This document shows positions 1 through 10,933 of a stretch of DNA of 64,000 bases, one piece after another. The notes beneath the pieces were generated by a model, which was not told the DNA's origin, did not search any database, and was given only the letters and a program-made list of their open reading frames with translations. Numbering within the stretch: the stretch's first letter is position 1; the number at the start of each line of letters is the position of its first letter. Made by a program: the position numbers and the translations under genes. Location: NCBI RefSeq assembly GCF_002926165.1, contig NZ_MAGP01000024.1, forward strand, positions 1-64,000, written 5' to 3'. The DNA is from Micromonospora chalcea. Lineage in GTDB: Bacteria; Actinomycetota; Actinomycetes; Mycobacteriales; Micromonosporaceae.

Positions 1-678
1 GGGGTGGGGGGGGGGGGGGGAGAGGACCTTCAGGGTTTCGGCTGTGGCTATCGCGTCGCTGCGGGCACTGCCGTGCCGCCCGTCGCTGCTGTACAGCGAC
101 GGGTCGGCCACCAGCGGATGGTCGGTCAGGTGCACGTGCAGCGTGCCCAGCCGCTCGGCCACGCCGCGGGTGTGCCGGGACAGCCGGCGCATCCGCTCGC
201 CCAGGCCCGCGCGCAGCGTCTCCGGCACGGCCGGGCTGTGCGAGACGTCGAACATGCCCACCGTGATCACGTCCGCCCCCGCTTCCCGCAGCGCGGTGAT
301 CATGGCGGTCAGCTCGGCGTCGACCGCGTCCGGGTCGTAGGCGGACCGGAACGCGTCGTTGCCGCCGCACACCACCAGTGCGAGATCCGGTGCGAAGGCC
401 AGCGCGTCGGCCAGCTGGGCCGCCCGCACCTCGTGCGCGCGCAGCCCGCGCCGGCCCAGGTTCAGGTACGCCAGCTCCGGCCGGACGGCGCGCAGCTCGG
501 CGGCGATCCGGTCGGCCCACTGGAGGTCCGGGTAGCCGTCGACCGGCTCGCACAGTCCTTCCGCGACGCTGTCGCCGAGCACCACGAACCGGCGCCACGG
601 GTGCCCGCGCAGCAGCTCGGTGGCCTCGCCCGGACGCAGGCACCACGGATCAGTCGCCTCGGTCAACGTCGATGCCAT
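1..678 (-). CDS. SGNH/GDSL-family esterase (C-terminus cut by window edge)
   Basis: Putative serine esterase/lipase of the SGNH hydrolase superfamily; no signal peptide, so probably cytoplasmic. Seen: block I motif VVLGDSVAEG with the nucleophile Ser at residue 37, block III GGND near residue 110, and a C-terminal DGRH that would supply the catalytic Asp and His. The frame stays open to base 1, so the true C-terminus is outside the window; the last visible codons run through a poly-G tract (poly-Pro), which may not be reliable. ATG at 678 is preceded by TAGCCT with a 7-base spacer, suggesting a leaderless start. The natural substrate cannot be inferred. Confidence 0.85.
   Translation of the reverse strand, partial: MASTLTEATDPWCLRPGEATELLRGHPWRRFVVLGDSVAEGLCEPVDGYPDLQWADRIAAELRAVRPELAYLNLGRRGLRAHEVRAAQLADALAFAPDLALVVCGGNDAFRSAYDPDAVDAELTAMITALREAGADVITVGMFDVSHSPAVPETLRAGLGERMRRLSRHTRGVAERLGTLHVHLTDHPLVADPSLYSSDGRHGSARSDAIATAETLKVLSPPPPHP
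6..20. repeat. 15-base homopolymeric G tract at window start
   Basis: Bases 6-20 are uninterrupted G (19 G in the first 20 bases, broken only by a T at 5). It lies inside the 3' part of the SGNH esterase and encodes proline on the minus strand. Such a long G run is odd even at this GC content. It could be a contig-end or sequencing artefact, or a true slippage-prone tract. Confidence 0.8.
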
Positions 679-1777: not shown

Positions 1778-2998
1778 TCAGACCGGCGTGGGGGTCGCCG
1801 GTTCCGGGGCCGGGCGGTGGGACCCGCGGGTCAGCAGCAGCGGTCCCACGGTCAGCACCAGGCAGACCACCGACATCACCAGCAGCGCCGGGGTGAGGTC
1901 GAGCAGCGCCACCGACCAGCCGCCGAGCAGCGCGCCGACGGGCAGGCCGAGGAACGCCACCGACCCGGAGATGCCCAGCACCCGGGTCTGCAGCTCGCCC
2001 GGCACCCGCTGGTAGAGCGACGCGCCGAGCAGCGGGTTCACCGCCGCGATGCCGATGCCGGACAGGAACGTCACCACCAGCACCACGACCAGGTCGTCGC
2101 TGAGCGCCAGCGCGAGCAGCCGGGGCGCGCCGCTGAGCGTCAGCCCCAGCGCGAACGTCGTCCCGGCGGGCAGCCGGGTGCCGAACATCGTGAACAGCAC
2201 GTTGCCCAGCAGCGCGCCGCCCGAGAACACACCGAGCAGCAGGCCGAAGCCGGCCGGGTCGCCGAGCACCTGGTTGACCCAGAGCGGGATCCAGACCGCG
2301 ACGCTGGCGTTGGCGAACATGTTCGACACCGAGACCACGATCAGCATGATCATCAGCGTCCGGTCGGTGCGCAGGTACGCGAAGCCGCCGCGCAGCGCCC
2401 GCAGGTAGGGCTCCCGGGGTGCGGGTTGAGTCGGCGCGGGCGGCCGGACCAGCACGCCGATGAGCAGCGCGCAGACCGCGAACGTGGCCGCGTCGATCCA
2501 GATGGCCCGGGTCAGCCCGACCCAGTCGATGAGCAGTCCGCCGAGCACCGCGCCGAACAGCGTCATGCCCCGGGCCAGGCCGTCGTAGGCGCTGGTGAGC
2601 CGGATCAGCGGCACCCCGGCCCGCTCGGCGGCCGGTTTGAACAGTACGTGCTTGACCCGGTCGCCGATGCCGCGCAGCCCGCCGGCGACCGCCACCAGGA
2701 CCAGCAGCCGGCCGAACCCGAGCCAGGGGGCCAGCGCCACCACCGCCATCGCGACGGCGCTCGCCGCGTCCACGAACACGGAGGTACGGCGTACCCCGAA
2801 GCGGTCCGCCCACGGCGTGGCCAGCGCGCTGGAGAGCATGTACGGCAGCGTCTCCGCCGCCGCGACGAGTCCCATCTTGGTGGGGCTGCCGGTGGTCTCC
2901 AGCACCAGCCAGGGGATGGCCACCACGGAGATCCGGGTGCCGAGGTTGGACAGCAGGTCGGCGCCGACCAGGGTGTACAACTCCCGGCGCGGGTTCAT
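1778..2998 (-). CDS. MFS transporter (drug-efflux type)
   Basis: 406-residue integral membrane transporter with about 12 hydrophobic segments and the family signature GADLLSNLGTRISVVAIPWL in TM1. The loop after TM2 contains ADRFGVRR, the usual MFS motif A position. It resembles macrolide/multidrug efflux MFS proteins (DHA3-like). ATG at 2998 overlaps the TGA of the upstream acyl ligase (ATGA), so the two are coupled. Next to a ligase, P450, oxidase and aminotransferase it is a plausible exporter of the locus product. That role is inferred from context only. Confidence 0.85.
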   Translation of the reverse strand: MNPRRELYTLVGADLLSNLGTRISVVAIPWLVLETTGSPTKMGLVAAAETLPYMLSSALATPWADRFGVRRTSVFVDAASAVAMAVVALAPWLGFGRLLVLVAVAGGLRGIGDRVKHVLFKPAAERAGVPLIRLTSAYDGLARGMTLFGAVLGGLLIDWVGLTRAIWIDAATFAVCALLIGVLVRPPAPTQPAPREPYLRALRGGFAYLRTDRTLMIMLIVVSVSNMFANASVAVWIPLWVNQVLGDPAGFGLLLGVFSGGALLGNVLFTMFGTRLPAGTTFALGLTLSGAPRLLALALSDDLVVVLVVTFLSGIGIAAVNPLLGASLYQRVPGELQTRVLGISGSVAFLGLPVGALLGGWSVALLDLTPALLVMSVVCLVLTVGPLLLTRGSHRPAPEPATPTPV

Positions 2999-4569
2999 GC
3001 CGAGCTGCCGATCACGGTGCCCAGCGTGTCGGCGTCGGCGGGATGCGCGGCGGCGTACCGGGCCCGAAGCGCCCGTTTGTCCACCTTCGCGGACCGGTTC
3101 AGCGGCAGCGCGTCCACGAACTCCACGGCGCCGGGCGCCCACGTCTCGCTCAGCTCCCGCACCACCAGCGCGATCAGCTCCTCGCCGGTCACCGACGCGC
3201 CGGGCGCCGGCACCACGTACGCGTACGGCAGCTCCCCGGCGACCGGGTCCGGCACGCCGATCACGGCGGCGGCCCGCACCTCGGGGTGGCCGGCGAGCAC
3301 GTCCTCGATCGGGCGGGAGTAGATCGGCCAGCTGCGCGCCCGGGTGAGGATCCGGTCCTGCAACCGGTCGACCAGGTAGAGGTAGCCGTCGGCGTCGAGG
3401 TGGCCGATGTCGCGGGTGCGGACCCAGCCGTCGACGAGCGTCTCCGCGGTCAGCTCCGGCCGGCCGTGGTAGCCGGCGAAGCTCAGCTTCGTCCGGACCC
3501 ACACCTCGCCGTCGTCGCCGGGCGGCAGCACCTTGCCGTCGGCGTCGCGGATCTCCACCGTCACGTCGCCGTACGGGCGGCCGCAGGAGCGCAGACGCTC
3601 CGGGTGCTCCGGGTCCTCGGTCAGCCCGGGCAGCGCGCAGATGACCACCGCCTCGCTGAGGCCGTACACGATGCGCAGGCACGGGCCGAAGCGGGCGATG
3701 GCCTGGCGCAGCCGGGCGGGCGCGGCGGGCCCGGCGCCCACGTTGAACATGAACATGGCGGAGAAGTCGGCGCCCGGCAGGTCGGGGTGGTCGAGCACCT
3801 CGTAGAGCATCGGCGGGGTGACGAATGTGGAGGTGAGCCGCTCGGCGTCCACTGTCGCGATGAACGCGGCCGGGTCCCACTGCTCGCGCAGGAACAGCAC
3901 GCCGCCGGTGAACAGGTTGAACAGCGTGGTGATCTGGCCACTGGCCAGCCACATCGGTGAGTGCGACAGGTGCCGCAGCAGCGGGAACCCGGCGCCCCGG
4001 AAGTCGGCGGCCAGGGCGAGGACCTGCCGGTAGAAGCTCTCCCGGTGGTGCACCAGCTTCGGCGTGCCGGTGGTGCCGCTGGTCTGCAGGAACGACTCCG
4101 GCGCGGGCGCGTCGGCGGGCAGCTCAGCCGCCGGCTCGCCGGCCGTCGCGGTCAGGTCCGGTCCGGCGCCGCCGGGGCCGAGGCAGAGCACCGGTACGCC
4201 GGACAGCCCGGCCGCGATCTGGACCGCCTGCGGGTCGCGCGGGTCGTACACGAACGCCTCCGGCGCGGACAGCGCGACGAACTCGTCGACCTCCCGCCGC
4301 GAGGTCACCGGGGCGACCCACATGCTCCGGCAGCCCAGCAGGTGCAGCGCCAGTTGCAGCAACGGGCCCTCGACCGTGTTGCCGAGCATCACCAGCACGG
4401 CCGCGCCGGGGCGTACCCCGTGCCGGCGCAGCGCGGCGGCCAGGCCGCGCACCCGCGCGGCGACCTGGGGGTAGGTGAGGCGGCGTCCGCCGCCGACGAG
4501 CGCCTCCCGGTCGCCGAAGCCGGCGAAGAGCTCCAGCGCCTCGTGCACATAGTTCGGCCGGTCGGTCAT
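2995..4569 (-). CDS. AMP-dependent acyl-CoA synthetase/ligase (ANL superfamily)
   Basis: 524-residue adenylate-forming enzyme that would activate a carboxylate as acyl-AMP and then probably as the CoA thioester. Seen: P-loop TSGTTGTPKLV (about residue 165), core YGLSEAVV, GEVWVRTKLSFAGYHGRPELT, the hinge region DRLQDRILTRARSW, and the C-terminal catalytic lysine in PLNRSAKVDKRALR. The hinge lacks the common G-R-x-K-D pattern, so the family branch is unusual. No carrier protein or NRPS module is present in the window. It is the first gene of a two-gene operon with the MFS exporter and is divergent from the SGNH hydrolase and P450 operon. The substrate is unknown; an aryl or fatty acid is possible. 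Confidence 0.88.
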   Translation of the reverse strand: MTDRPNYVHEALELFAGFGDREALVGGGRRLTYPQVAARVRGLAAALRRHGVRPGAAVLVMLGNTVEGPLLQLALHLLGCRSMWVAPVTSRREVDEFVALSAPEAFVYDPRDPQAVQIAAGLSGVPVLCLGPGGAGPDLTATAGEPAAELPADAPAPESFLQTSGTTGTPKLVHHRESFYRQVLALAADFRGAGFPLLRHLSHSPMWLASGQITTLFNLFTGGVLFLREQWDPAAFIATVDAERLTSTFVTPPMLYEVLDHPDLPGADFSAMFMFNVGAGPAAPARLRQAIARFGPCLRIVYGLSEAVVICALPGLTEDPEHPERLRSCGRPYGDVTVEIRDADGKVLPPGDDGEVWVRTKLSFAGYHGRPELTAETLVDGWVRTRDIGHLDADGYLYLVDRLQDRILTRARSWPIYSRPIEDVLAGHPEVRAAAVIGVPDPVAGELPYAYVVPAPGASVTGEELIALVVRELSETWAPGAVEFVDALPLNRSAKVDKRALRARYAAAHPADADTLGTVIGSSA

Positions 4570-4736
4570 CGGGCAGCCCCCATCATGGTCCGCGAGCGGC
4601 GTCCGGCCAGGTCAGGGCCGGGACATGACGGCAGGTGCCAGGTCGGCGACCGCACCGCCGCCAGCTTCCGAGCCTAGGCAGCGGCGGTCCACCGCGGACA
4701 GAGCCGATCGTCGCTGCGTCCCGCGACGTGGGCATT

Positions 4737-4791
4737 TGATCATGTCGATCAGGTTGATTGACGCTCGTCACCGCCGGAAGCTAGTTTCCGG
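4737..4791 (+). promoter_or_regulatory. Candidate promoter and inverted repeats upstream of secreted SGNH hydrolase
   Basis: Within the 285-base divergent region (4570-4854) I see TTGACG at 4758-4763 and TAGTTT at 4782-4787, an 18-base spacing typical of a housekeeping sigma-factor promoter. Two short inverted repeats overlap it: TGATC-N5-GATCA (4737-4751) and CCGGAA-N6-TTCCGG (4774-4791); the second covers the -10 box and could be an operator. GGAGG sits just before ATG 4855. Confidence 0.4.
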
Positions 4792-4854
4792 TCCATCGCC
4801 CGGGCCGGTGCCGCCGACCGCGTCACGCCCGGGGCTGCCGACCATGGAGGATCG

Positions 4855-6165
4855 ATGCCGACCCCGAAGAGATGGCACGTCATAGCTTCCGCCGTAACGC
4901 TGCTGATCGCCGCCACCCCGGCGGTCACCGCGAGCGCCGGCCCGACCGACACCGACCGCGCCGGGCACGGGCGCGCCGAGTGGGCCGGGACCTGGGCCGC
5001 GGCGGTGACCCGCGGGAACACCGTGGGCCTGACCGAGACCGGCCTGAACAACCAGAGCATCCGGATGACCGTGCAGACCTCGGTGGGCGGGCCGCGCCTG
5101 CGGGTGCGGCTGACCAACCTCTACGGCCAGCAGGCCATCCAGGTCGGCCGCGCCACCATCGCCCGGCCGAACACCGCCACCCCCGACGACCTGTCCGACA
5201 TCGTCCCGGCCAGCGTCCGCCAGCTGACCTTCTCCGGCGCCGGCTCGGCGACCATCAACAAGGGCGCCGAACTGCTCAGCGACCCGGTGGCCTTCCCGGT
5301 GGCCGAGCAGGAGGACCTGGTGGTCACCCTGTACTTCCCGGTGCTCACCGGGCCGGTCACGTTCCACGGCCAGTCCCGGGTCACCAACTTCATCGGCGCC
5401 ACCGACCTCACCTCGGCGGCCGACGGCGCCGGCTTCACCATCCGGCCCAACTGCTGCTGGATGTTCCTGTCCGGCATCGACGTGGAGCGCAAGGTGACGC
5501 CCGGCTCCGTGGTGGTGCTCGGCGACTCCATCAGCGACGGCAACGGCAGCACCGTCAACGCCGACCGCCGCTGGCCGGACCTGCTCGCCAAGCGGCTGAT
5601 CGACGCCCGCCCGGAGCCGCGTACGCCGGGCGTGCTCAACCTCAGCCTGGCCGGCAACCGGCTCAACCACGAGGGCACCGAGCCCGGCGCGGGCGACTTC
5701 CCCGGCTACTACGAGCTGGGCCCGAACGCGCTGGCCCGGCTCAACGAGGACGTGTTCCCGCAGACCGGGGTGCGTACCGTCATCACCCACCTGGGCATCA
5801 ACGACATCTGGATGAACGGTGACAGCCCGGAGGCGATCATCGCCTCGCTGCGCCAGCTCAACCGGCAGGTCCAGGCGCGCGGCCTGACCAGCATCGCCGG
5901 CACGCTCATGCCGTACGAGGGCAACGGCGGGCCGGGCGTGTGGACGCCGGAGAAGGACGCCACCCGGCAGGCCGTCAACACCTGGCTGCGCGGGCCCGGC
6001 CGGGCCGAGTTCGACGGCGTCGTCGACTTCGACGCGGTGATGCGCGACCCGGCGCAGCCCAGCCGGCTGCTGCCGGCGTACGACTCGGGTGACCACATCC
6101 ACCCGAACGACACCGGAGCCGCGGCGATGGCGAACGCGGTGCCGTTGAAGCTGCTCGGACTGTGA
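4855..6165 (+). CDS. Secreted SGNH/GDSL hydrolase
   Basis: 436-residue extracellular esterase-type hydrolase. An N-terminal signal peptide (basic KR, hydrophobic VIASAVTLLIAATPAVTASA) is followed by a beta-rich domain and the SGNH catalytic domain: GDSIS with Ser225, GxND at residues 314-317, and D413-H-I-H416 completing the triad. This arrangement is typical of actinobacterial secreted GDSL proteins acting on polysaccharide acyl groups or lipids. GGAGG precedes ATG 4855 closely. A 12-bp hairpin with a T-run follows the gene, so it is probably transcribed separately from the downstream P450 operon. Confidence 0.9.
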   Translation: MPTPKRWHVIASAVTLLIAATPAVTASAGPTDTDRAGHGRAEWAGTWAAAVTRGNTVGLTETGLNNQSIRMTVQTSVGGPRLRVRLTNLYGQQAIQVGRATIARPNTATPDDLSDIVPASVRQLTFSGAGSATINKGAELLSDPVAFPVAEQEDLVVTLYFPVLTGPVTFHGQSRVTNFIGATDLTSAADGAGFTIRPNCCWMFLSGIDVERKVTPGSVVVLGDSISDGNGSTVNADRRWPDLLAKRLIDARPEPRTPGVLNLSLAGNRLNHEGTEPGAGDFPGYYELGPNALARLNEDVFPQTGVRTVITHLGINDIWMNGDSPEAIIASLRQLNRQVQARGLTSIAGTLMPYEGNGGPGVWTPEKDATRQAVNTWLRGPGRAEFDGVVDFDAVMRDPAQPSRLLPAYDSGDHIHPNDTGAAAMANAVPLKLLGL

Positions 6166-6171
6166 CACCGG

Positions 6172-6205
6172 GCGGGGGCGGCGGTCGACACGACGCCGCC
6201 CCCGC
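6172..6205 (+). terminator. Intrinsic terminator/attenuator between SGNH hydrolase and P450
   Basis: Perfect 12-bp stem (6172-6183 with 6194-6205), 10-base loop, followed after five bases by TTTT. It sits between the secreted hydrolase stop and the P450 ribosome-binding site, so it separates or attenuates transcription of the two units. Confidence 0.7.
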
Positions 6206-6231
6206 CGCCGTTTTCCTGGGGAGGAAAGACA

Positions 6232-7455
6232 GTGGACGTCAGCGAGATCCTGACCGGGCTCTACAGCGAACAGGGCCGGCAGAACCCCTATCCCTTCTAC
6301 GCGGCCCTGCACGAGCACGGGCCGATAAACGCCGTTCCGGCCCGCGCCGAGCACAGCACCGTCAGCGCGGTGGCCGGCGGCTACGACATGGTGGACCAGA
6401 TCCTGCGCGATCCCGGCTGGTACAAGGGCTTCCCGCCCGGCTGGGAGGAGCAGGAGATCCTGCGGACTTTCCTGACGTCGATGATGTTCGTCAACCCGCC
6501 CGACCACACCCGGATGCGCGCGGTGTTCGCGAAGACGTTCACCCCGCGCCGGCTGGTCGCGCTGGAGCCGGTGATCGAGCGGGTCGTCGCCGAACGCCTG
6601 GACCACATGGCCGAGGTGGGCGCCGACGGGCACGAGGTGGACTTCGTGGCCGACTTCGCGTACCCGGTCCCGGCGCTGGTGATGGCCGAGTTCATCGGCC
6701 TGCCCCCGGCCGACCTGGCCTGGTACCGGCAGCGGGTCGACTGGATCGACGAGTACATGGACGTGTCCGGCAAGACGCCGGAGCGGCTGGCCCGGGCCAA
6801 CCAGGCCGCCGAGGAGCTGCGCGTCTACTACCGCGACCTGATCGCCCACCGGCGCCGTACGCCCGGTCACGACCTGATCAGCGGGCTGGTCGAGGTGCTC
6901 GACGCGGGCGGCGTCGACCTCACCGAGGACGAGTTGATCAGTAACCTGATCGTGCTGTTCAACGCCAGCTTCGTCACCACCGTCTACATGTTCAGCAACG
7001 GCCTGCCGCTGCTGCTGGACCACCCGGACGTGACCGCCGCGCTACCCGGTGACGACGCGCTGGCCCGGGGCTGCGTGGAGGAGGTGCTGCGGATGGAGAG
7101 CCCGGTGCACTTCCTGGCCCGCTCCGCGCCCGCCGGCGTCGACCTCGGCGGCGTGCCGGTCGACCGGGACGACAACGTGCTGCTGCTGATCGCCGCCGCC
7201 AACCGCGACCCGGCCCGGTTCCCCGACCCGGACCGCTTCGACCCGCGCCGTCCCGGCCCGCCGTCGTTGGCCTTCGGCGTCGGGCTGCACTTCTGCCTCG
7301 GCTCGGCGGTGTCCCGGCTGGAGGGCCGGCTGCGGCTGCCGCGCCTGTTCGCGCGCTTCCCGCGGCTGGCCGTCACCCAGCCGTACACGTACAGCGGGAG
7401 TCTGTTCCTGCGCGGCATCGACAAGCTCTTCGTCACCACAGGGGAGGCCGGATGA
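6232..7455 (+). CDS. Cytochrome P450 with atypical I-helix (no conserved acid)
   Basis: 407-residue soluble heme monooxygenase of the actinobacterial class. The heme loop FGVGLHFCLG places the Cys ligand at residue 355, and the K-helix E-x-x-R is in EVLRM. The I-helix, normally A-G-x-[DE]-T-T, reads A245-S-F-V-T-T: the Thr pair is kept but the Gly and the acidic residue used in proton delivery are replaced by Ser and Val. This suggests altered O2 activation, a peroxide shunt, or assistance from the substrate. GTG 6232 has a good GGGGAGGA ribosome-binding site. It is the first gene of a tightly coupled four-gene unit (P450, hydrolase, FMN oxidase, aminotransferase). Substrate unknown; no ferredoxin gene is adjacent. 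Confidence 0.92.
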   Translation: MDVSEILTGLYSEQGRQNPYPFYAALHEHGPINAVPARAEHSTVSAVAGGYDMVDQILRDPGWYKGFPPGWEEQEILRTFLTSMMFVNPPDHTRMRAVFAKTFTPRRLVALEPVIERVVAERLDHMAEVGADGHEVDFVADFAYPVPALVMAEFIGLPPADLAWYRQRVDWIDEYMDVSGKTPERLARANQAAEELRVYYRDLIAHRRRTPGHDLISGLVEVLDAGGVDLTEDELISNLIVLFNASFVTTVYMFSNGLPLLLDHPDVTAALPGDDALARGCVEEVLRMESPVHFLARSAPAGVDLGGVPVDRDDNVLLLIAAANRDPARFPDPDRFDPRRPGPPSLAFGVGLHFCLGSAVSRLEGRLRLPRLFARFPRLAVTQPYTYSGSLFLRGIDKLFVTTGEAG

Positions 7456-8462
7456 CACTCGATCCGCAGGTGGTCGCGTGGCGGACCGCGCGGGCCGCCG
7501 CCGGGACCGTGCCGCTCTACACCCAGACCCTGGCCGAGGCCCGCGCCGCCGACCTCGCCGCGATCCGTGCCGGCTCCGGCGCGGTCGAGCCGGTCGCCGA
7601 GGTACGCGACACGACGGTGCCCGGCCCGGCCGGGCCGCTGCCGGTGCGGATCCACCGGCCGGACGGCGACGGCCCGCTGCCGACGCTCGTCTACTTCTTC
7701 GGTGGCGGCTGGACCCTCGGCAGCGTCGACACCGCCGACGGAATCTGCCGGCGGCTGGTCAACCTGACCGGCGCGCAGACCGTGACGGTCGGCTACCGGC
7801 TCGCCCCGGAGCATCCGTTCCCGGCGGCGGTGGAGGACTGCCACGCCGCGGTGCGGCACCTCGCCGCGCACGCCGCCGAGTTCCGCGTCGACCCGGACCG
7901 GCTGGCGGTCGGCGGGGACAGCGCGGGCGGGAACCTGGCCGCCGCTGTCACGCTGCTGGCCCGCGCCGACGGCGGTCCCCGGCTCGCCGCCCAGCTGCTG
8001 GTCTATCCGAACACCGACCAGCGGCCCGGGCACCGCCCCGGCGACGACGAGGACCCGATGCTGTTCAACAGGCACTCGGTGGGCTGGTACCGGAGCCACT
8101 ACCTGGCCGACCCGGGCGACGCGGCCCACCCGCTGGCGTCTCCGCTGCTCGCCGAGGACCTGGGCGGCCTGCCCCCGGCGCTCGTGATCACCGCCGGGTA
8201 CGACCCGCTGTGCGCCGAGGGCCGGCGGTACGCCGAGCGGCTGGGCGAGGCCGGCGTGCCCACCGAGACGGCCCACTACCCGGGGATGGTGCACGGGTTC
8301 TTCGCCATGCCCGGCGTGTTCGACGCCGGACGGCAGGCCCAGGAGCGGGCCGCCGCCTTCCTGCGCCGCACGTTCGGGCTCGACCGCACGCCCGGTGCGG
8401 GCGAGTCCGCTGCGGGCGTGGACCCGGCCGGGAACACGGTGGGCGCGGGCGGCCATGGCTGA
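7452..8462 (+). CDS. Alpha/beta hydrolase (hormone-sensitive-lipase-like esterase)
   Basis: 336-residue esterase/thioesterase-like alpha/beta hydrolase. Seen: the oxyanion-hole region FFGGGW (the family HGGG with Phe in place of His), nucleophile elbow GDSAGG at residues 155-160 with Ser157, catalytic Asp in GYDPLC and His in VHGFF. ATG 7452 overlaps the P450 stop (ATGA) and its own stop overlaps the next start, so it is translationally coupled. In this locus it may hydrolyse an ester or thioester intermediate; that is inference. The last 35 residues are low-complexity and probably not part of the fold. Confidence 0.88.
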   Translation: MTLDPQVVAWRTARAAAGTVPLYTQTLAEARAADLAAIRAGSGAVEPVAEVRDTTVPGPAGPLPVRIHRPDGDGPLPTLVYFFGGGWTLGSVDTADGICRRLVNLTGAQTVTVGYRLAPEHPFPAAVEDCHAAVRHLAAHAAEFRVDPDRLAVGGDSAGGNLAAAVTLLARADGGPRLAAQLLVYPNTDQRPGHRPGDDEDPMLFNRHSVGWYRSHYLADPGDAAHPLASPLLAEDLGGLPPALVITAGYDPLCAEGRRYAERLGEAGVPTETAHYPGMVHGFFAMPGVFDAGRQAQERAAAFLRRTFGLDRTPGAGESAAGVDPAGNTVGAGGHG

Positions 8463-9588
8463 CCCGGCACGCGACACGCAGCCGCCCGCCGACGCGGCGG
8501 ACGGCTTCGTGCCGCCGGTCAGCCTGGCCGACTTCGCCGCGCTGGCCCGGGCGGTGCTGCCGCCCGACGTGTGGGACTTCGTCGACGGCGGCAGCGGCGC
8601 CGAGACCGCCCTGGCCGCGAACCGGGCCGCGCTCGATCGGGTGGCGGTGCTGCCGCGGATGCTGGCCGGCGTGGACGACCCGTCCACCGAGGCGGCGCTG
8701 CCCGGCGGCCGGGCCGCGTTGCCGGTGGCTGTCGCGCCGATGGCGTACCAGCGGTTGCTGCACCCCGACGGCGAGCCCGCGCTCGCGGCGGCGGCCCGCG
8801 CGGCGGGCGTGCCCTACGTGGCCAGCACGCTGGCCAGCACGCCGATCGAGGAGATCGCGGCGACCGGCGCGACGGTGTGGTTCCAGCTGTACTGGCTGCG
8901 CGACCGGACGCTGGTGGCCGACCTGCTCGACCGGGCGTCGGCGGCCGGCTGCGCGGCGGTGATGGTGACTGTGGACGTGCCGGTGCTCGGGCGGCGCCTG
9001 CGCGACGCCCGCAACGGGTTCGCGCTGCCGCCGCACGTCACCGCCGCGAACCTGCCCGGCGGCCGGGACGACCTGGCGCACCAGGGCACCCCCGGCGTGT
9101 CGGCGGTGGCGGTGCACACCGGCGCGGTCTTCGCCCCGGCGCTGAGCTGGGCGGACCTGGAGTGGCTGCGGGAGCGTACCCGGGTGCCGTTGCTGGTCAA
9201 GGGCATCCTGGACGCGCGCGACGCGGTCCGTGCGGCGGACGCCGGCGTGGACGCCGTGGTGGTCTCCAACCACGGCGGACGGCAGCTCGACGCCGCCCCG
9301 GCCAGCGCGAGCGTGCTGCCCGAGGTGGTCGAGGCGGTCGACGAGCGGTGCGCGGTGCTGCTGGACAGCGGCGTCCGCGGCGGCGTCGACGTGCTGCGCG
9401 CGCTGGCGCTGGGCGCGGACGGCGTGCTGCTGGGCCGGCCGCTGCTCTGGGCCCTGGCCGCCGGTGGCCGGGTCGGCGCCGAGGCGGCACTCGCGCTGCT
9501 CGCGGCGGAACTGCGCGACGCGCTCATCCTCAGCGGCTGCCCGGACCCGGCCTCGGCCCGGCGGCTGCGCACCCGGATCGGAGGCTGA
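8455..9588 (+). CDS. FMN-dependent alpha-hydroxy-acid oxidase/dehydrogenase
   Basis: 377-residue TIM-barrel flavoenzyme of the glycolate/lactate/mandelate oxidase family, which converts an alpha-hydroxy acid to the 2-oxo acid. Seen: WFQLYW (substrate-binding Tyr), TVDVPVLGRRLRDARNGF, catalytic VSNHGGRQLD with His273 and Arg276, and the FMN phosphate loop DSGVRGG...GADGVLLGRPLLW. I chose ATG 8455, which overlaps the preceding stop by eight bases and gives the normal N-terminus. With an aminotransferase immediately downstream, the pair recalls the 4-hydroxymandelate oxidase/HpgT steps of arylglycine biosynthesis, although no 4-hydroxymandelate synthase is seen here. Confidence 0.9.
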   Translation: MADPARDTQPPADAADGFVPPVSLADFAALARAVLPPDVWDFVDGGSGAETALAANRAALDRVAVLPRMLAGVDDPSTEAALPGGRAALPVAVAPMAYQRLLHPDGEPALAAAARAAGVPYVASTLASTPIEEIAATGATVWFQLYWLRDRTLVADLLDRASAAGCAAVMVTVDVPVLGRRLRDARNGFALPPHVTAANLPGGRDDLAHQGTPGVSAVAVHTGAVFAPALSWADLEWLRERTRVPLLVKGILDARDAVRAADAGVDAVVVSNHGGRQLDAAPASASVLPEVVEAVDERCAVLLDSGVRGGVDVLRALALGADGVLLGRPLLWALAAGGRVGAEAALALLAAELRDALILSGCPDPASARRLRTRIGG

Positions 9589-9589
9589 C

Positions 9590-10933
9590 GTGGAACCGGT
9601 CGACCTGGCCGTCACGGCGCTGCACGGCAGTGTCGGCGACCCGGCGCTGAACTCGATGAACTTCCTCAACGAGGTGGCGCAGCACTACCCGGACGCGGTG
9701 TCGCTGGCGGCCGGGCGGCCGTACGAGGAGTTCTTCGACTCGGCGGTGCTGCACACGTACCTGGACCGCTTCCGCCGCCACCTCGCCGAGGACGTCGGGC
9801 TGGACCGGGCCGGCGTGGACCGGACGCTGCTGCAGTACGGCCGGACCAAGGGCGTCGTGCACCACCTGATCGCCCGGCACCTCGCCGTGGACGAGGGGCT
9901 CACCGTCGACCCGGAGTCGATAGTGGTGACAGTTGGCTGCCAGGAGGCGATGTTCCTGGTGCTGCGCGCGCTGCGGACCGGCCCGGCGGACGTGCTGTTC
10001 GCTGTCGCGCCCACGTACGTCGGGCTCACCGGCGCGGCCCGTCTGGTCGACCTGCCGGTGCGCCCGGTGGCCGGCGGGCCCGACGGCGTCGACCTGGCCG
10101 ACCTGCGCGCCGGGGTGCGCCGCGCCCGCGCGGAAGGGCTGACGCCCCGGGCCTGCTACGTGATGCCCGACTTCGCCAACCCGTCCGGCGTCAGCATGGG
10201 CACCGGGCAGCGGCGACGGCTGCTGGAGCTGGCCGCCGAGGAGGACCTGCTGCTGATCGAGGACAACCCGTACGGCCTGTTCCCGGCCGACGGCACCGCG
10301 CGGCGGCCCACGCTCAAGGCGCTGGACACCGCGCGCCGGGTGGTCTACCTCGGCTCGTTCGCCAAGACCGTGCTGCCCGGGGCCCGGGTCGGCTACGTGG
10401 TCGCCGACCAGCGGGTGGGGGAGGCCGACGGCACAGTGGTCCCCTTCGCCGACCACCTCGCGAAGATCAAGAGCATGGTCACGGTGAACACGTCACCGAT
10501 CAGCCAGGCGGTGATCGGCGGCGCGCTGCTGGCGCACGACTGCTCGCTGGTGGCCGCGAACGTGCGGGAACGGGCCGCGTACGCCCGCAACCTGCGCCAC
10601 CTGGTCGACGGCCTGGCCCGGCGCTTCCCGGCCGGCGGCCCGGTCACCTGGACCGTCCCGGCGGGCGGCTTCTTCGTGGTGGTGAGCGTCCCGTTCCCGG
10701 TCGACGACGCGCTGCTGCACCGCTCGGCCCGCGAGTACGGCGTGCTCTGGACGCCGATGGCCCACTTCTACGATGCGGGCACGCCGGTGAATGCGTTGCG
10801 GCTGTCGGTGAGCGCTGTCACACCGGAGTCGATCGATCTCGGGCTGGACCGGCTCGCCGCGCTGGTCACGGACACCATGTCCGGCAGCGTGACGCCGGAG
10901 TGTCAGGGTTCCGGCACACTACGTGTTTCCTGA
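9590..10933 (+). CDS. PLP-dependent aminotransferase, HpgT/DpgT-like
   Basis: 447-residue fold-type I class I/II transaminase. Seen: PLP-stacking region VTVGCQEAMF, PDFANPSG, EDNPYG and the Schiff-base lysine in GSFAK (Lys259), then ARVGYVV with the phosphate-binding Arg. The N-terminus (ALHGSVGDPALNSMNFLNEV) and overall pattern recall hydroxyphenylglycine/dihydroxyphenylglycine transaminases of glycopeptide clusters; that resemblance is from memory. GTG 9590 lies one base after the oxidase stop, so the 2-oxo acid made by the oxidase is the likely amino acceptor. This is the last gene of the four-gene unit. Confidence 0.88.
   Translation: MEPVDLAVTALHGSVGDPALNSMNFLNEVAQHYPDAVSLAAGRPYEEFFDSAVLHTYLDRFRRHLAEDVGLDRAGVDRTLLQYGRTKGVVHHLIARHLAVDEGLTVDPESIVVTVGCQEAMFLVLRALRTGPADVLFAVAPTYVGLTGAARLVDLPVRPVAGGPDGVDLADLRAGVRRARAEGLTPRACYVMPDFANPSGVSMGTGQRRRLLELAAEEDLLLIEDNPYGLFPADGTARRPTLKALDTARRVVYLGSFAKTVLPGARVGYVVADQRVGEADGTVVPFADHLAKIKSMVTVNTSPISQAVIGGALLAHDCSLVAANVRERAAYARNLRHLVDGLARRFPAGGPVTWTVPAGGFFVVVSVPFPVDDALLHRSAREYGVLWTPMAHFYDAGTPVNALRLSVSAVTPESIDLGLDRLAALVTDTMSGSVTPECQGSGTLRVS

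Follow-up and report, generated by a model that had tools for sequence, protein, structure and literature searches.

The window considered here is the whole stretch of DNA that was analysed, namely bases 1 to 64,000 of contig NZ_MAGP01000024.1 (C24) in the 7.0 Mb genome of Micromonospora chalcea, window base 1 being contig base 1. Near its left end lies a compact unit in which an MFS transporter gene and an AMP-dependent ligase gene diverge from an arm of coupled genes for a cytochrome P450, an alpha/beta hydrolase, a flavin mononucleotide (FMN)-dependent oxidase and an aminotransferase (Table 1). An earlier reading made from the sequence alone (the sequence-only reading) had proposed that this unit could make an arylglycine-like amino acid, possibly released as such. 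The arylglycine part of this proposal is supported below by the resemblance of the oxidase and the aminotransferase to 4-hydroxymandelate oxidase (Hmo) and HpgT. The unit itself probably forms the right-hand end of a larger biosynthetic gene cluster.

Gene layout of the unit

The MFS gene overlaps the ligase gene by 4 bases and has syntenic orthologues at 62-98% identity. In the opposite arm, the hydrolase gene overlaps the P450 gene by 4 bases, the ATG of the oxidase gene at 8455 creates an 8-base overlap with the hydrolase gene, and a single base separates the oxidase and aminotransferase genes. Position-specific GC content backs the reading frames, and Pfam backs each general class label of the sequence-only reading. 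The divergent arrangement described there stands, and the genes that it listed are present and coupled; it had overlooked a GDSL esterase gene between the arms, and the MFS gene carries the left border, placed at 2995, further left. The unit is conserved, being syntenic in many genomes of the genus. The GDSL esterase gene travels with it as syntenic orthologues in the genus and is also found at three Kribbella loci (57-59% identity). The best Protein Data Bank (PDB) match of the ligase is a fatty-acyl-CoA synthase (8pyy, 290 bits). The contig opens in a run of G (window 1-20), at which point the cluster is cut in this assembly, and the SGNH hydrolase gene truncated there is probably not a core part of the cluster.

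Table 1. Features at the left end of the window, with the evidence used to label them
Feature	Position	Strand	Evidence
SGNH hydrolase gene, truncated by contig end	1..681	-	L120 orthologue is a GDSL-type hydrolase
MFS transporter, probable exporter	1778..2998	-	PF07690 7.8e-33; TIGR00900 under cut-off
AMP-dependent acyl/aryl ligase (LIG)	2995..4569	-	PF00501 4.6e-52, PF13193
Divergent intergenic region separating the two arms	4570..4854	.	Direct reading
GDSL/SGNH esterase, probably secreted	4855..6165	+	PF13472 4e-22; N-terminal signal-like stretch by eye
Cytochrome P450, I-helix motif NASFVTT	6232..7455	+	PF00067 1.3e-29
Alpha/beta hydrolase, HSL/LipP1-like	7452..8462	+	PF07859 1.3e-71; NF058653 355 bits, cut-off 350
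4-hydroxymandelate oxidase-like FMN oxidase (Hmo)	8455..9588	+	PF01070; 5zzp match; tree
HpgT-like pyridoxal phosphate (PLP) aminotransferase	9590..10933	+	Closest relatives; tree

The oxidase, the aminotransferase and the HmaS-type gene

Hydroxyphenylglycine (Hpg) is a building block of vancomycin-type antibiotics. The HmaS, Hmo and HpgT steps leading to its L-4-hydroxy form are described in an excerpt of PMC10991500, and the reactions of HmaS and of 4-hydroxyphenylpyruvate dioxygenase (HPPD) in an excerpt of PMC13111500. The closest PDB match of the window's oxidase is the 4-hydroxymandelate oxidase 5zzp (391 bits). The lactate oxidase 7f22 reaches 322 bits, a score summed over two stretches of a 736-residue fusion chain, and the next single-domain enzymes, hydroxyacid and glycolate oxidases, reach about 270 bits. 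The oxidase, the solved Hmo and oxidases encoded beside HmaS genes (L083-L085, L193) form one clade with 99% support in the Shimodaira-Hasegawa-like approximate likelihood ratio test (SH-aLRT); the oxidase and aminotransferase trees come from a quick search without bootstrap, contain several long branches and include no lactate or glycolate oxidase reference. Paralogues of 47-50% identity (L001, L092, L091) lie outside the Hmo clade, and a fourth paralogue (L089) groups with L088 and L090. At the active site, with a numbering that we take over from glycolate oxidase, the window's enzyme equals the solved Hmo at 7 of 7 positions (catalytic Tyr, Asp, His, Arg; Phe/Leu at two substrate sites). 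The assignment as an Hmo-like enzyme, predicted to act on (S)-4-hydroxymandelate, is well supported, and the mandelate-type FMN oxidase of the sequence-only reading is upheld. A general lactate or glycolate oxidase is rejected on the ranking of the PDB matches and on the tree, which has no lactate oxidase among its references.

The aminotransferase is 57% identical to the enzyme encoded beside dpgA-D in Nonomuraea gerenzanensis, a locus that we take to be the A40926 cluster, 56% identical to one beside dpgA-D on a Streptomyces cellulosae plasmid, and 60% identical to one beside phenylglycine-type genes and a nonribosomal peptide synthetase (NRPS) on a plasmid of Streptomyces sp. NBC_01294 (L210). 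Paralogues in its own genome are only 29-35% identical. In the tree, whose outgroup is one general paralogue on a very long branch, it stands in a 99% clade with enzymes encoded beside dpgA-D, phenylglycine-type genes and HmaS rather than with general transaminases, which agrees with its earlier labelling as HpgT-like. A plasmid search with the aminotransferase gave 35 records (best 61.6%), and no copy of the unit was present in the three neighbourhoods opened. Because closest relatives and trees assign the oxidase to Hmo and the aminotransferase to HpgT, the arylglycine reading is supported.

A gene of HmaS type lies outside the window. In a search of 14 genomes with the TIGR01263 profile, six have, besides the housekeeping HPPD gene, an HPPD-like gene 14-18 kb upstream of the oxidase gene; in the window's genome this gene is on contig C151. 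The closest PDB match of the protein is 2r5v (named PCZA361.1; 308 bits), presumably the HmaS of A. orientalis, and the HPPD 1t47 scores 240 bits. Near the C-terminus, Ile stands at the position of an HPPD Phe in 102 of 108 aligned rows, a replacement that we take as diagnostic of HmaS; the alignment includes overlapping loci, 106 rows are readable at this site, the four rows with Phe are housekeeping HPPDs and the other two are gapped. The iron ligands are kept. The gene is well supported as HmaS-type.

In the genus set of 151 genomes, an oxidase orthologue is present in 126 (at least 68% identity, fragments included, from 133 genomes with a listed match at E <= 1e-40), HmaS in 88 (at least 70% identity, from 93 genomes with a match, five with only 47-58% matches being left out) and both in 87. 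In 73 of these 87 genomes the two genes share a strand and HmaS precedes the oxidase by 12.6-32.6 kb; among the remaining 14, the two genes are split over contigs in 12, including the window's genome, 42 kb apart in one, and in one HmaS is elsewhere. The starts of C151 and C24, aligned separately to relatives, are separated by about 250 bp in L120 and about 590 bp in L119, and from these two relatives we infer that C151 abuts C24 in the window's strain. HmaS, Hmo and HpgT would then form a complete L-Hpg cassette within one cluster.

The larger cluster, its losses and its distribution

The gene order of the cluster is seen in genome G018. It begins with a BTAD-domain regulator, a TcmI-type cyclase, ACC subunits, ketosynthases KSalpha and KSbeta, an AMP ligase and two proteins resembling acyl carrier proteins (ACPs), continues with ketosynthase KS3, an AMP ligase, ketosynthase KS4, HmaS, PhyH, DUF3050, E1alpha and E1beta, and ends with a 449-aa ATP-grasp protein and an SGNH hydrolase, followed by the window's unit. 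Contig C151 of the window's genome (L114) matches every one of these genes from the ACC subunits through the ATP-grasp protein. The remark of the sequence-only reading that no NRPS or carrier protein is near consequently holds inside the window only, since C151 encodes ACP-like proteins, ketosynthases and ligases. No Condensation domain was found by Pfam among the cluster genes scanned, and no NRPS gene was recognised there; Condensation domains occur in L123 and L197, two loci of other genera.

By eye, the active sites of KSalpha and KS4 are complete and KSbeta lacks the Cys. KS3 (L107:5943-7073) keeps the active Cys, and its first catalytic His motif, HGTGT, has become NATGT, also by eye, a change that suggests acyl transfer instead of ordinary condensation. 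The structure model of the ATP-grasp protein (predicted local distance difference test, pLDDT, 91) matches glutathione synthetases and glutathionylspermidine synthetase (best E 6e-17, template-modelling score about 0.6), at 11-18% identity in the upper rows, and points to a C-N ligase fold resembling that of glutathione synthetase. Two or three ATP-grasp ligase matches stand in a row in Kribbella-type loci (L142, L162, L184, L188, L201). A DUF3050 protein is presented as haem-oxygenase-like in an excerpt on the mangotoxin operon, where disruption of the gene lowered production and did not abolish it (PMC3298696).

The genes of the unit and HmaS tend to be present or absent together. Among the 151 genomes, uncorrected for kinship, the P450 is found in 87, the unit aminotransferase in 90 (fragments included) and HmaS in 88. 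P450 and HmaS are both present in 84 genomes, P450 alone in three, HmaS alone in four and neither in 60; for the aminotransferase and HmaS, the corresponding counts are 86, four, two and 59. Without a correction for kinship, Fisher values for these counts cannot be read as probabilities. This co-occurrence, with the synteny of the unit, is more than chance grouping. The unit lacks HmaS, PhyH and the aminotransferase in G002, and the aminotransferase in G106. Each of these genomes has a second HmaS-Hmo-HpgT locus elsewhere (L083, L085), which would fit supply in trans in these two cases.

The oxidase also persists without HmaS. Four of the genomes in that state retain the P450 or the aminotransferase (G002, G053, G124, G148). 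Ten genomes without HmaS, P450 and aminotransferase were examined (11 loci); type II polyketide synthase (PKS) genes of the spore-pigment type lie near the oxidase in seven of them, one of which also has the hydrolase, and the fetched 20 kb of the other three contains no type II PKS genes. The oxidase-only loci include L062, L064, L078, L082/L117, L094, L097 and L098, and also L077, L093 and L095. On the tree, the oxidase-only state corresponds to four changes, at least three of them supported by starred branches, in a direction that the tree does not give. The aligned oxidases of oxidase-only genomes contain no stops, and the ratio of nonsynonymous to synonymous substitution rates (dN/dS) is 0.12-0.23 in six pairs and 0.20 in a mixed pair; it is 0.085-0.27 in three comparison pairs whose genomes have all or most of the module. 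The oxidase without HmaS is under purifying selection in the genomes examined, and an Hmo kept without supplier or acceptor raises the question of a second role for this enzyme.

The window's locus recurs in named Micromonospora and Salinispora species. When named genomes were scanned for the PhyH of a diverged relative, 211 relatives came up, and the best 80, which were kept, comprise 31 loci in these two genera and 49 in others: Kribbella (12), Streptomyces (11), Catellatospora (7), Actinokineospora (4), Dactylosporangium (4), Phytohabitans (3), Saccharothrix (2) and six genera represented once each. HmaS is encoded in all 80, which is not an unbiased rate since the query PhyH adjoins HmaS; it lies at most 400 bp upstream of PhyH in 75, overlaps it in three, is 531 bp away in one and is separated from it by Hmo in one. 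The non-genus loci were fetched with a 10 kb flank, and some are also cut by contig ends. HmaS, KS4 and the ligase LIG1 are all matched in 41 of these 49, with the proviso that a KS3 may be picked up by KS4 as well. Counting best assignments only, KS4 occurs at loci of eight named genera, Kribbella, Streptomyces, Catellatospora, Actinokineospora, Dactylosporangium, Phytohabitans, Allorhizocola and Longispora. The HmaS/Hmo/HpgT trio accompanies ACP, ketosynthase and ligase genes in other genera, as in Kribbella antibiotica (L138), where the GDSL esterase, P450, hydrolase, Hmo and aminotransferase genes also follow in the same order. In a thin class-wide sample, PhyH was found in 7 of 394 genomes, three of the seven in the genus. 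A row of a different make-up, HmaS-PhyH-prephenate dehydrogenase-HpgT-Hmo, occurs in Streptomyces monashensis (L147:5448-14285), downstream of an ATP-grasp gene and a luciferase-like monooxygenase gene, and looks like another type of arylglycine cluster; L148 and L157 share the HmaS, PhyH, aminotransferase and Hmo matches with it. The cluster is widespread among soil and marine actinobacteria and apparently undescribed: no description of it was found in the open-access literature, searched by titles and the starts of abstracts and with few subscription papers covered, which is weak evidence of absence.

Proposed route, alternatives and known systems

Most likely, Hpg is made and then built into an exported product by a route other than an NRPS. 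In the sequence of events that we consider probable as a whole, where every enzyme activity, what each ligase accepts, how the tailoring steps follow one another and the product are all predictions, the host would turn tyrosine into 4-hydroxyphenylpyruvate, HmaS from the neighbouring contig would convert it to (S)-4-hydroxymandelate, the window's Hmo would oxidise this to 4-hydroxyphenylglyoxylate, and HpgT would transaminate the latter to L-4-hydroxyphenylglycine or a close arylglycine. The acid that AMP ligases may next attach to the stand-alone ACPs is most likely the arylglycine or the corresponding keto acid. Discrete ketosynthases, PhyH, DUF3050, E1alpha/E1beta, the ATP-grasp ligase and the P450 would extend, tailor and couple the loaded acid; the MFS protein would export the product, which the probably secreted GDSL esterase may trim once outside the cell. 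What the sequence itself shows is the family of every enzyme, the HmaS/Hmo/HpgT trio, the conservation of the cluster, and the presence of ACP-like proteins and ketosynthases. The free amino acid envisaged by the sequence-only reading is less likely because the cluster contains ACP-like proteins, ketosynthases and ligases. More tentatively than this route, we suggest that Micromonospora, Salinispora and at least eight other actinobacterial genera could share a non-NRPS arylglycine assembly line made of stand-alone ligases, discrete ACPs and ketosynthases (with KS3 devoid of the first catalytic His), a PhyH that serves only the arylglycine branch, and an ATP-grasp ligase that forms amides.

Several observations weigh against this interpretation. 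In the window's strain, the link between HmaS and the unit is inferred across a contig gap. The 99% Hmo clade does not include the oxidases encoded next to HmaS in L087, L088, L090 and several other loci, and the 99% aminotransferase clade leaves out three enzymes encoded next to HmaS (L087, L088, L090). The Hmo-type Phe is not diagnostic, since it is also found in four paralogues while many orthologues have Tyr (8 of 11 oxidase-only rows and 3 of 9 other genus rows). Unit HmaS is absent from 39 of the 126 oxidase genomes, so that the oxidase also does something without HmaS. Within the fetched DNA of the 49 non-genus loci, Hmo is found in 24, the aminotransferase in 21 and both in 18. The two ACP-like proteins are not recognised by Pfam, NCBIfam giving a weak match for one. 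Finally, the role given to E1alpha/E1beta is a guess, because these proteins, 35 and 38% identical to phenylglycine-type E1s, are about as far from them as from PDH-type E1s.

Three other explanations can be considered. The oxidase might act mainly as an oxidative decarboxylase or feed E1alpha/E1beta, so that the ketosynthases receive a starter of 4-hydroxybenzoyl type and the aminotransferase makes a side branch. The presence of E1alpha/E1beta and of a KS4 with a complete active site in the cluster speaks for this scheme, as does L086, which has HmaS-PhyH-Hmo with ketosynthases and no aminotransferase within 20 kb (an aminotransferase of 49% identity is encoded elsewhere in that genome). However, the aminotransferase and HmaS occur together in 86 of the 92 genomes with either, and the E1s are unmatched in L133, L149 and L193, which keep HmaS, Hmo and the aminotransferase; we consider the scheme unlikely. 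It is also rather improbable that the module, with no product of its own, decorates or primes a neighbouring black spore pigment. In the genus, the module adjoins KSalpha, KSbeta, cyclase and ACC genes on the same strand, an arrangement that also counts against the route preferred here, and the oxidase is still near PKS genes in seven of the ten examined genomes without the module. A type II PKS thought to make black spore pigment is reported for all Salinispora arenicola strains in an excerpt of PMC12838356, and it may correspond to the PKS genes next to the cluster. Yet the module occurs in other genera, and at the genus locus L086, without cyclase or ACC matches in the fetched DNA. A type II PKS was dropped as a necessary part of the pathway, the loci of other genera showing no cyclase or ACC match.

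The version closest to the sequence-only reading, in which the P450 stands in for HmaS by alpha-hydroxylating an arylacetate and the free arylglycine is exported, appears very improbable. Translational coupling and co-occurrence tie the P450 gene to the hydrolase-Hmo-HpgT genes, and an MFS gene adjoins. However, the cluster contains an HmaS-type gene, on which ground the P450 is rejected as a substitute, and its ACP-like proteins, ketosynthases and ligases argue against export of the free arylglycine; moreover, L133 and L193 keep HmaS, Hmo and the aminotransferase without a P450 match in the fetched DNA. P450 hydroxylases usually carry an acidic residue before the I-helix Thr. This residue is absent from the window's P450, whose motif, in the form NA[SAG]FxTT, is shared by 53 of 56 aligned rows (query and overlapping loci included), the other three being P450s below 35% identity. 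Its absence seems compatible with hydroxylation and lends no support to an HmaS role. The NA[SAG]FxTT family reaches Kribbella, Longispora and Labedaea.

Hpg is known mainly as an NRPS building block. If the preferred route, from HmaS, Hmo and HpgT to an exported non-NRPS product, is true, the conservation, in a well-mined genus, of a cluster that makes Hpg for some other type of assembly would be a sign of an overlooked core metabolite. The gene set and the genomes with partial losses make the question directly testable.

Among known systems, the vancomycin-group pathway shares all three enzyme families, as judged by sequence, best matches and trees; the vancomycin cluster contains hmaS, hmo and hpgT according to an excerpt of PMC4048454. 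In contrast to the clusters of that group, discrete AMP ligases, ACP-like proteins, ketosynthases, an ATP-grasp ligase and PhyH accompany HmaS here, and no NRPS gene was recognised among the genes scanned. The phenylglycine-type genes of the NBC_01294 plasmid, which we take to be pgl genes, likewise combine a related aminotransferase with E1alpha/E1beta in one cluster. They differ by the distance of the E1s given above, and the hydrolases show no significant match; the identification of E1alpha/E1beta and the hydrolase as PglB/C/D is rejected. The spore-pigment-like type II PKS of Micromonospora and Salinispora adjoins the module on the same strand within the genus, whereas in other genera the module is found at loci with no cyclase or ACC match. 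The HmaS-Hmo-PhyH-aminotransferase-EamA row of Wenjunlia vitaminophila (L193:7699-13352) forms one arylglycine cassette related to the present one (Hmo 62%, aminotransferase 64%, PhyH 70%). It differs by an EamA transporter at its end and by the lack of any match to the cluster's ACPs, ketosynthases and ligases in 20.9 kb; of the two, it is this row and not the window that resembles a locus for a free arylglycine. The steps leading to the arylglycine are known chemistry, and what appears to be new is the cluster around them.

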